From Psychroflexus salarius (GTDB lineage: Bacteria > Bacteroidota > Bacteroidia > Flavobacteriales > Flavobacteriaceae): a DNA stretch of 64,000 bases. The position numbers and the translations under genes were made by a program. The notes beneath the pieces were generated by a model. The model worked only from the letters and a program-made list of their open reading frames with translations. It was not told where the DNA came from and did not search any database. Shown here in pieces: positions 18,862 to 21,157 of this stretch. Positions within the stretch are counted from its first letter, which is position 1, and the number at the start of each line of letters is the position of its first letter. The DNA lies in NCBI RefSeq assembly GCF_900129035.1, contig NZ_FQTW01000003.1, forward strand, positions 1 to 64,000, in the 5' to 3' direction.

Positions 18862-19590
18862 TTAGGTAACCAACGCTGATTGCTCCCAGGTTTGCTTTAA
18901 TTGATGCAGACTATTAAACAAGTCACTAAAATTATTAATCACGTAATAATCTTCTTGCATCACATCTGTCCTAAATGGCTTATTGATAATCTCGTTAATA
19001 TCATAAGTGTGAAAATTAGCGGCTTGTTCATCAATTTGATTGGTTTCACCAAAAGAAGATAAAATCCCAGCACCATAAGATTTAATTTTAGCATCTTCTT
19101 TTAGCACCCCAAATTCAATTGTAAACCAGTACAGACGTTGCAGTTGAACAAGCTTTTCTGAGTCATTTAAATATTGGCAACCTAATTTACCAAACTCATG
19201 TACAAATTCTGAGAAGATAGGATTTGATAATAACGGAATGTGCCCAAAGATATCATGAAACATATCAGGCTCTTCTAAATAATCTAGACTATCTTTAGAG
19301 CGCAACCAAGTTGAAGAACAAAAGGTTTTTTGGGCAAGTAACTGAAAAAAATCTTCAACTTCAATTAAACCTGGCACCACTTTAATTTCCCATTCAGTTG
19401 AAGTTTTAAACCATTTGTTTACCTTTTCAAAATCAGGAATTTCATTTACATTCAACACAGGAGACATCACCTCTAAAGCATCAATATAGGCAGTAGATGC
19501 TTTGTTAGGAATGTTTTTTAACTGGCGTTGAGCAAGTGTTTTCCACACCCATAAATCGCTTTCAGTGTAATTTTTCATGTTTTGTTTCAT
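18862..19590 (-). CDS. phhA: Phenylalanine 4-monooxygenase (phenylalanine hydroxylase)
   Basis: This enzyme hydroxylates phenylalanine to tyrosine using iron and a pterin cofactor. At 242 residues it is the bare catalytic domain, without the regulatory ACT domain of animal enzymes. The iron ligands are visible: His112 and His117 in FHDIFGHIPLL and Glu159 in WFTIEFG. The start at 19590 is 14 bases after the T run of the upstream attenuator; an ATG four codons later is also possible. Expression is probably controlled by the leader peptide and terminator at 19604-19731. The gene is transcribed towards the shared terminator at 18818-18849. Confidence 0.95.
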   Translation of the reverse strand: MKQNMKNYTESDLWVWKTLAQRQLKNIPNKASTAYIDALEVMSPVLNVNEIPDFEKVNKWFKTSTEWEIKVVPGLIEVEDFFQLLAQKTFCSSTWLRSKDSLDYLEEPDMFHDIFGHIPLLSNPIFSEFVHEFGKLGCQYLNDSEKLVQLQRLYWFTIEFGVLKEDAKIKSYGAGILSSFGETNQIDEQAANFHTYDINEIINKPFRTDVMQEDYYVINNFSDLFNSLHQLKQTWEQSALVT

Positions 19591-19603
19591 AATTATAGAG
19601 CAT

Positions 19604-19637
19604 AAAAAAATCCCGATTCAATTCAGAATCGGGATTT
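19604..19637 (-). terminator. Attenuator terminator of phhA
   Basis: On the minus strand, AAATCCCGATTC, a six-base loop and GAATCGGGATTT form a perfect 12-bp stem, followed by seven T. It lies between the tyrosine-rich leader peptide and phhA. Its 5' arm contains CCGATTCTG (plus-strand 19624-19632), which can instead pair over 9 bp with CAGAATCGG inside the leader reading frame (plus-strand 19675-19683). This gives mutually exclusive terminator and antiterminator structures. Confidence 0.85.
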
Positions 19638-19662
19638 AGATTAATGTATTAAGGTTAAGCCA

Positions 19663-19731
19663 TCACATTATCAACCGATTCTGGTCTGAAACAGTATAAT
19701 AATAGTAATAAGCTTGTTGATTAAATTTCAT
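19663..19731 (-). CDS. Tyrosine-rich leader peptide of phhA
   Basis: This 22-codon open frame begins at an ATG at 19731 and ends in TGA. Residues 8-12 are five consecutive tyrosines (codons TAT TAC TAT TAT TAT); the peptide starts MKFNQQA. A -7 box (TACATTTG, 19737-19744) ends five bases before the ATG, so the mRNA would be leaderless or nearly so. The antiterminator segment (codons for Gln-Asn-Arg, 19675-19683) starts about 13 bases after the last Tyr codon. A ribosome stalled on Tyr would just leave it free, and one that reaches the stop codon would cover it. Tyrosine scarcity should therefore raise phhA expression. The arrangement is seen directly; its function is inferred from known attenuators. 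Confidence 0.85.
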   Translation of the reverse strand: MKFNQQAYYYYYTVSDQNRLIM

Positions 19732-19736
19732 ATTTA

Positions 19737-19744
19737 CAAATGTA
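19737..19744 (-). promoter_or_regulatory. -7 box of the phhA leader transcript
   Basis: The minus strand reads TACATTTG, matching TAnnTTTG. The leader peptide ATG begins five bases after the final G. Confidence 0.6.
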
Positions 19745-19767
19745 AACGACTCTTTGTAATTGACTAA

Positions 19768-21009
19768 TTAACCATTGTTAAATTTTTGTTTTGAAGAGTT
19801 ATTTTGAGAGAACTCATTTAATTTAAGGTTATTAAGCATTTTCTTAGCTTGATTTTCAAGGTAGTTTTGAAAATAAACTTTAGACCTGTTTTGCGTATGA
19901 CTTAATACAATGTAAGTTAACTCGTCTTCAGGAAAGTAATGTAAGCCATTTCTAAAGCCATCCCATAAGCCGTCATGGTAAATTTCAATTTCACCAGATG
20001 AATTTACACGCGTTCTAAAACCCATGCCATAATCATATTGCTTAAAAGTATCAAGGTTGAACATTTGGTGAACTGAAGCTTTAGAGAGTAATTTGTAATT
20101 TTTTAGTTGTTTAAACCAGATCCACAAATTATTTGCTGTGGTATGAATACCCTTATCACCTAAAGCGCCATTATGAAAACTTGGTGGTAAATTTATATAA
20201 CTTCGACCATAAGGTTGAAAAGCCGTAATTACATTTTCTCTTGAACGGTTTTGAACGCCAACGTAAGTTTCGTCTAAACAATGTGGACTAAAAAAATGTT
20301 GTTGTAAAAAATCTCTAAAACTTTGGCCACTTAGTTTCTCGGTTAAGGCTACTAAAATGGCGTAATTAGTATTATTATAATCAAATCGGCTACCAGGTCT
20401 AAAGCTTAAACTGCTCTGGTGCTGGTTAATCAACTCTAAAACTTCAAATTGGTCAGGCGCTTTTTCTTGATGCCAATAAGCTTCAGTTAAATTCATATAA
20501 TCCCAAAGACCAGAAGAATGCTTCAATAAATCACGCACTTGAATATTTTCAAATTTAAATTCTGGAAAGTAATTCACTAAGGCTTGGTTGATGTCAACTT
20601 TACCTAATTCAGCTAATTTTAAAACAGCAGCTGCCGTAAATTGCTTACTTACTGATGCCAGTTCAAATGAAATATCGGTGGTCAGTAAGTCTTTAGCCGT
20701 AGGATCTTTGTAGCCATAAGCCTTTTCAAAAATAACTTGATTTTTATAGGCCACTAAAACGACGCCATTAAATCGACTACGCTTAGCTTTATAATCTAGC
20801 TTATTCTCAAAGCTTACAAGCTTATTGGAAAGGATCGATTTATAATTAAACTTAGGTTTTTTTTCTGGCTTTACTTCATCAAACACAAGCTTTGAAGCTT
20901 CTTTAGCATTTTTATTAACCGTGGCATGACTAAAACTATAGTTTATAAACACTGCTACAATAAGCATAAAGGCGATGAGCAGTAAAATTCGGCGCTTATT
21001 CTTTAACAT
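19768..21009 (-). CDS. Serine hydrolase, class C beta-lactamase fold
   Basis: This membrane-anchored serine hydrolase belongs to the beta-lactamase/DD-peptidase-like superfamily (PF00144). The active-site Ser is in SVSK, the second element is YNN in FDYNNTNYA, and a late HDG motif (YHDGLWDGF) replaces the Lys-Thr-Gly box, as is common in this superfamily. A single hydrophobic segment near the N-terminus acts as a signal anchor. I choose the ATG at 21009 because a -7 box (TATATTTG, 21027-21034) lies just upstream. An ATG at 21123 would add 38 residues but overlaps the serS promoter. The substrate is unknown (peptide, ester or beta-lactam). Confidence 0.8.
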   Translation of the reverse strand: MLKNKRRILLLIAFMLIVAVFINYSFSHATVNKNAKEASKLVFDEVKPEKKPKFNYKSILSNKLVSFENKLDYKAKRSRFNGVVLVAYKNQVIFEKAYGYKDPTAKDLLTTDISFELASVSKQFTAAAVLKLAELGKVDINQALVNYFPEFKFENIQVRDLLKHSSGLWDYMNLTEAYWHQEKAPDQFEVLELINQHQSSLSFRPGSRFDYNNTNYAILVALTEKLSGQSFRDFLQQHFFSPHCLDETYVGVQNRSRENVITAFQPYGRSYINLPPSFHNGALGDKGIHTTANNLWIWFKQLKNYKLLSKASVHQMFNLDTFKQYDYGMGFRTRVNSSGEIEIYHDGLWDGFRNGLHYFPEDELTYIVLSHTQNRSKVYFQNYLENQAKKMLNNLKLNEFSQNNSSKQKFNNG

Positions 21010-21026
21010 AAACAAAACTTGAACGC

Positions 21027-21034
21027 CAAATATA
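21027..21034 (-). promoter_or_regulatory. -7 box of the serine hydrolase gene
   Basis: The minus strand reads TATATTTG, matching TAnnTTTG, 17 bases before the ATG at 21009. It is the reason for preferring that start. Confidence 0.5.
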
Positions 21035-21088
21035 CATAAACTTAACCTAATATTATTTTGACTTAACATTCTAATCTTGTAATGAATA

Positions 21089-21118
21089 TTGTACAAGACG
21101 GCTGAATTGCTAAATTTG
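21089..21118 (+). promoter_or_regulatory. serS promoter
   Basis: TTG at 21089-21091, a 19-base spacer and TAAATTTG at 21111-21118 give an exact -33/-7 promoter. The serS ATG is 40 bases after the -7 box. Confidence 0.65.
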
Positions 21119-21157
21119 TACATTTAGTATAAACCGGAGGCCAAAAGACCATTAATT

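Follow-up and report, generated by a model that had tools for sequence, protein, structure and literature searches.

A candidate tyrosine-sensing leader attenuator upstream of the phenylalanine hydroxylase gene phhA in Psychroflexus and other Bacteroidota

The window, a 64,000-nt stretch of the Psychroflexus salarius genome, encodes a phenylalanine 4-hydroxylase gene (phhA) preceded by a short tyrosine-rich ORF and an intrinsic terminator (Table 1). An earlier note on this DNA had described the ORF, its Tyr run, the terminator and a 9-bp complement between leader and terminator, and the coordinates it gave were right at every position on re-checking. The terminator stem consists of the arms AAATCCCGATTC (19637-19626) and GAATCGGGATTT (19619-19608), with seven T at 19610-19604, and 13 bases separate the T run from the phhA start at 19590. 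Within the leader, CAGAATCGG (19683-19675) is a perfect complement over 9 bp of CCGATTCTG (19632-19624) in the 5' arm of the terminator. A putative 1:2 protector hairpin was predicted in the window fold, and a 1:2 register ranked high in a helix scan; the pairing is AU-rich, which makes the evidence for it weak, and involves the Tyr codons themselves. A serine hydrolase gene ends 36 nt before the leader ORF, and phhA appears to be monocistronic, as the next large ORF downstream is convergent.

Table 1 Features of the phhA locus in the window, in the order of transcription.
Feature	Position	Strand	Description
Upstream co-directional serine hydrolase gene	19768-21123	-	Pfam Beta-lactamase
Candidate -33 element TTAG	19764..19767	-	Consensus TTTG; spaced 19 nt from the -7 box
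Candidate -7 box TACATTTG	19737..19744	-	Consensus TAnnTTTG; transcript predicted to start near 19732 (plus or minus 1)
Tyr leader ORF	19663..19731	-	22 codons, MKFNQQAYYYYYTVSDQNRLIM; probably leaderless (predicted 5' UTR 0-2 nt)
Sensor, five consecutive Tyr codons	19696..19710	-	Inside the leader ORF
Predicted 1:2 protector hairpin	19657..19715	-	Tyr codons and segment 2; fold prediction
Segment 2, 5' half of the antiterminator	19675..19683	-	CAGAATCGG; pairs with 19624-19632
Intrinsic terminator	19604..19637	-	12-bp stem with a 6-nt loop; 7 T; segment 3 forms the 5' arm
phhA, phenylalanine 4-hydroxylase	18862..19590	-	242 aa; Pfam Biopterin_H, E 5.2e-44

When the 156-nt leader was compared with its dinucleotide shuffles, it folded far better than expected (z -4.92, 0/200 shuffles as good), and without the terminator the z-score was only -2.13 (5/200 shuffles). 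Five consecutive TAY codons were matched seven times in the window genome when overlaps were counted (four places) and the reversed control pattern six times, and none of the other three places held a short ORF with the run in frame. Given how AT-rich this genome is, the Tyr run alone thus does not exceed chance, and a genome-wide search for such runs was rejected as evidence. Judged from the sequences compared, it is conservation in relatives that raises the phhA leader above chance.

A leader was counted where at least three Tyr fell within seven codons and a terminator was present. In the genus Psychroflexus, a PhhA match was found in 19 of 27 genomes, 17 with a short form of the enzyme and two (G021 and G024) with only a long-form relative (26-32% identity, the frame being interrupted in G024). 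Sixteen of the 17 genomes with a short phhA carried the Tyr leader and terminator. The exception (G015, locus L004) had no Tyr leader, and no terminator was detected computationally, although by eye a short hairpin can be made out ahead of a run of T; this genome has TyrA. A family sample of 149 genomes gave 94 with a match, 88 of these with the long form only, and five further genomes with a short phhA, two of which had the leader. Named genomes were represented by the best 80 of 575 loci, reduced to 68 by removing 12 repeat genomes and to 65 by asking for at least 200 nt of upstream sequence; leader and terminator were found at 41 of these 65 non-redundant loci. The leader count thus failed at 24 of the 65 named loci (from the best 80 of 575), in three of the five family genomes and in G015, and four of the 24 (L071, L085, L099 and L115) resemble leaders that are weaker or fall outside the criterion. 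As labelled, the carriers include Flavobacteriaceae, Crocinitomicaceae (Fluviicola), Saprospiraceae (Lewinella) and a Chitinophagales MAG. Two labels call for comment: CP034120.1 (L107), labelled as the gammaproteobacterium Glaciecola amylolytica, has a phhA Tyr leader nearly identical to that of a Fluviicola locus (L095), for which a mislabelled record, contamination and transfer are candidate readings, and in a MAG labelled Actinomyces viscosus (L099) the phhA, which has a weak leader, looks flavobacterial, at odds with the label.

A covariance model of the leader gave 16 matches at 76.7-102 bits in the genus, every one at phhA, with the next best at 47.9 bits; among 14 weaker matches inspected, one before pheA (L165) was the only leader-like case. 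Across the order (296 genomes) there were 19 matches, of which the seven at 65 bits or more were all at phhA, and among eight of the 12 weaker ones inspected only one, before tyrA (L182), was leader-like. Long-form hydroxylases were rejected as leader hosts: taking the first M of the frame as the start, no consecutive Tyr run was found upstream in the 25 readable of 26 loci, and one locus (L036) passed the loose count of three Tyr in seven codons. The comparative check that the earlier note had called for thus found the Tyr codon run, the terminator and the alternative pairing before phhA in related genomes.

This recurrence bears on an alternative in which the hairpin would only be the terminator of the serine hydrolase gene, the ORF a product of chance and the phhA promoter located further downstream. 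The upstream gene is indeed co-directional and close by, and the Tyr run would by itself allow such a reading, which we nevertheless regard as very unlikely given that the same element is found immediately ahead of phhA in different genera and families, that segment 2 co-varies with the terminator arm, and that exact -7 boxes were absent 3-9 nt before the phhA starts. A TAnnTTTG box (at least 5/6) ended 3-9 nt before the leader start at 34 of 57 loci, compared with 6 of 57 for phhA starts and 6.8 of 57 in shuffles. For exact boxes the counts were 29 leader starts, 0.4 in shuffles and no phhA start among the 57 loci, where the phhA start was set to the first position of the protein match, possibly a few codons off. 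When other in-frame ATG or GTG codons up to 24 nt upstream were allowed, a box was present at 45 of 57 loci, mostly at 4-6 nt, and the other 12 had none. An exact TTTG at 19-nt spacing was found at 10 of the 16 genus leader loci listed. In the window the -7 box ends (at 19737) 5 nt before the leader ATG, from which a 5' UTR of 0-2 nt is predicted. In Flavobacterium psychrophilum, the TAnnTTTG box is reported at -12 to -5 and leaderless mRNAs make up 5.5% of those mapped, in a phylum noted for the absence of Shine-Dalgarno sequences (PMC9723704). The leader ORF thus seems to begin at or near the 5' end of the transcript, the start of which we infer from the candidate promoter; the start near 19731 given in the earlier note fits the sigma-A-like box of Bacteroidota type, the last base of which is 19737.

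The pairing that underlies the proposed switch was evaluated by alignment and by a register-free test; 59 loci had at least three Tyr within seven codons. Terminator pairs were kept in 91.0% of cases against 80.1% in shuffles (0/500), and 58 cells were altered on both sides against 12.6 in shuffles (0/500). For the antiterminator in the fixed MAFFT register, 67.9% of cells were paired against 66.9% in shuffles (83/500) and the covariation score was reached in 35/500; this was not significant and was rejected as support, and a register-free swap test was added. We think that the fixed-register count failed as segment 2 shifts register between clades. In the swap test, a segment taken from a fixed window after the Tyr run was paired with its own terminator arm or with the arms of other loci. 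Over 59 loci the own duplex of segment 2 and arm reached -9.60 kcal/mol, compared with -7.61 kcal/mol for swapped arms, with 0/10000 permutations as good, although the permutations leave some shared ancestry in place. Alignment A2 (57 loci), from which one locus without segment 2 (L098) was omitted by hand and another (L076) as a near-duplicate, both restored for the 59-locus test, gave -9.65 and -7.68 kcal/mol (0/10000), and thinning the set to 42, 28 or 20 dissimilar loci left the result at 0/10000. Shuffles at single loci gave p 0.05 or less for the antiterminator in only 33 of 57. In an untargeted helix scan of the alignment the 3:4 helix ranked first, with 1:2 and 2:3 registers among the next. 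The mutual exclusion of antiterminator and terminator proposed in the earlier note is thus backed by the exact 9-bp complement and the swap test, and not by the MAFFT count.

The position of segment 2 relative to the ribosome was also largely conserved. In 58 of 59 loci it begins 11 nt or more beyond the last Tyr codon (11-18 nt in 55), and with an assumed footprint a ribosome at the leader stop would mask 80% or more of the segment in 55 of the 59. Under the same assumed footprint the exceptions to masking are four: at L073, L076 and L077 segment 2 finishes 18 nt short of the stop and would be left uncovered by a terminating ribosome, and L098 has a Tyr run and terminator without a matching segment 2. 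The geometry of the earlier note, in which a ribosome stalled at the last Tyr codon would clear the segment and one at the stop would mask it, is accordingly borne out at most loci with this footprint. Taken together, the locus has what characterizes a trp-type attenuator: by sequence an ORF with end-product codons, an intrinsic terminator, a co-evolving exclusive pairing, and the stall and mask geometry. A nascent-chain sensor, in which the leader peptide would arrest the ribosome in response to Phe, Tyr or a pterin with the same RNA switch downstream, would show an identical switch and geometry; since the leader peptides differ widely between clades outside the Tyr stretch, and segment 2 itself codes for the RIG ending that the peptides of the genus have in common, we find this highly improbable.

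The supply of tyrosine gives the putative switch a plausible purpose. No match to the TyrA or PheA models was found in the window genome (99.99% complete), while both models were positive in 14/14 control genomes; HgmA was likewise without a match, by a model that was positive in only 1/14 controls. With TyrA, PheA and HgmA matches missing, PhhA looks like the sole source of tyrosine and probably is the only one in this genome, fed by phenylalanine that would have to be imported. The end-product logic put forward in the earlier note, in which a tyrosine-making enzyme is controlled by charged tRNA-Tyr, is therefore stronger than the DNA of the window alone allowed. Phenylalanine hydroxylase as a tyrosine-making route has genetic (fitness) support in Dyella and Echinicola (PMC7311316).

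In Psychroflexus, four genomes (G001, G005, G018 and G022) combine a short phhA and leader with the lack of a TyrA or PheA match. Six genomes in all (these four, G000 and G009) gave neither match and are predicted from their gene content to be phenylalanine auxotrophs; G009 also lacks a phhA match and should need both phenylalanine and tyrosine. Among genomes outside the genus, TyrA passed the cut-off in 1 of 35 that carry the leader and in 9 of 15 that lack it (p 1.7e-5), a comparison of mostly MAGs, with completeness not given and with two groups that differ in ancestry. Five of the nine TyrA matches in leaderless genomes were strong (p 0.007 with these only), and four more leader genomes had TyrA matches below the cut-off. 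The rule is weakened by Psychroflexus itself, where TyrA is present too in 11 of the 16 genomes with the leader, and the association pooled with the genus was weaker (12/51 against 10/16, p 0.006). HgmA was matched in three genomes of the genus, all with low scores (23-26 bits, cut-off 21): G021 and G024, which have the long form only, and G025, which has a short phhA with leader.

We therefore consider it very probable, on comparative sequence evidence, that phhA is under a trp-type, ribosome-mediated transcription attenuator that senses charged tRNA-Tyr, as the earlier note had read the locus. From the transcript start inferred above, the conserved and co-varying parts, their geometry and the missing pathway genes, its operation can be outlined as follows. 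The transcript would begin at the leader start codon or directly beside it, so that the ribosome would load straight onto its 5' end in the absence of a 5' UTR. With tyrosine scarce, it would stall in the Tyr run, leaving segment 2 just past its footprint and free to pair with the 5' arm of the terminator, so that the terminator would be blocked, read-through would occur and phhA would be made; PhhA would then produce tyrosine from imported phenylalanine. With ample tyrosine, the ribosome would reach the leader stop and cover segment 2, the terminator would form and transcription would stop before phhA.

Related leaders were found before other genes. In another family of the order (f5), eight genomes (L182 and 7 of 30 loci fetched) carry Tyr leaders before tyrA: at L182, L198, L200, L202, L205, L213, L215 and L219, Tyr-rich leader ORFs with a TYYY or AYYY core and terminators lie upstream of the gene. 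A box-like sequence ends 4-5 nt before their ATG or GTG start, and several have a GTG start 4 nt past a box-like TATCTTCG. The antiterminator swap test was not supportive for these eight loci (-4.74 against -5.02, 8226/10000; the arm was given without loop). A Phe-rich leader (MLNKVYFWNFFYFAFTSRKGL and a relative) with a terminator precedes pheA at L142, L143 and L165, in two genus genomes (G014 and G011) that have kept the pathway. When the phhA model was run on 395 genomes of the phylum, four of eight matches were at phhA and the other four (L220, L221, L222 and L223) could be read as leaders before hisG (His/Tyr-rich), an aspartokinase-like gene (Thr/Ile-rich), tyrA (Tyr/Phe) and pheA (Phe/Tyr), respectively. 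The phylum thus probably has a wider repertoire of leader attenuators, to which the phhA leader belongs. It further seems reasonably likely that a Tyr-specific, leaderless attenuator class exists across Bacteroidota on whichever unrelated enzyme makes tyrosine, that is phhA in Flavobacteriaceae, Crocinitomicaceae and Saprospiraceae and tyrA in another family, and that it sits on phhA mostly where PhhA replaced TyrA, so that the switch would mark the biosynthetic form. As the leader was seen on the short form only, and G021 and G024 with the long form only are among the three genus genomes with a low-scoring HgmA match, it may allow phenylalanine hydroxylases with a biosynthetic role to be distinguished from catabolic ones at the sequence level. 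The phhA leader would also be a clean test case for leaderless initiation in a phylum noted for lacking Shine-Dalgarno sequences (PMC9723704).

When compared to Rfam, nothing scored above gathering; the best match was Thr_leader on the right strand (29.9 against 55 bits, E 4.9e-4), and Trp_leader reached 16.8 of 41 bits, so that the leader resembles these families without being a member. T-box was absent among the matches listed up to E 10. A Tyr T-box or riboswitch, i.e. an RNA binding tRNA or a metabolite instead of a translated leader, is therefore very unlikely, all the more as the conserved part is an in-frame Tyr-rich stretch within an ORF, even though tyrosine genes elsewhere are T-box controlled and a 2005 survey of Actinobacteria placed tyrosine under T-boxes (PMC1262725).

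Leader-peptide attenuators usually concern trp, phe, his, thr and leu; if the attenuator reading is true, tyrosine would join these amino acids. The E. coli trpL and pheL attenuators (PMC11802643) resemble the phhA leader in their short ORF carrying codons for the end product, in the choice between antiterminator and terminator, and in a stop codon position that masks segment 2. The phhA leader differs in the Tyr sensor, the gene (phhA or tyrA), the candidate start at the transcript 5' end and the Bacteroidota promoter. The AroR leader of C. glutamicum (Phe-Tyr-Phe, aroF operon) is likewise aromatic with a Tyr codon, but has only one and was reported to be unresponsive to tyrosine availability (PMC11802643). 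Putative attenuators have been listed before tyrA operons, among them that of Bacteroides thetaiotaomicron in Bacteroidota (PMC1173090, Table 7), in a text that does not use the terms leader peptide or tyrosine codons and that places phhA in catabolism. Within the same family, leader-peptide attenuation of amino-acid operons has been suspected in F. psychrophilum from conserved 5' elements without Rfam match at pheA and hisG, the section on these elements mentioning neither a Tyr leader nor phhA (PMC9723704). The novelty suggested by the earlier note is thus retained in part: a search of open-licence literature found no Tyr leader for phhA or tyrA, and within that literature the tyrosine specificity was not found described, but the architecture is classical and flavobacterial leader attenuation had already been suggested (PMC9723704). 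S. meliloti trpL is also a leaderless attenuator ORF, and differs in sensing Trp, in belonging to an alphaproteobacterium and in acting in trans as well (PMC7298713). Its RNA, rnTrpL, has the leader ATG right at the 5' end (PMC7298713), the layout predicted here, and as reported for trpL the terminated phhA leader might additionally work in trans as an sRNA, or the leader peptide might have a function; we consider this improbable, and it is compatible with the tRNA-Tyr attenuator proposed here.
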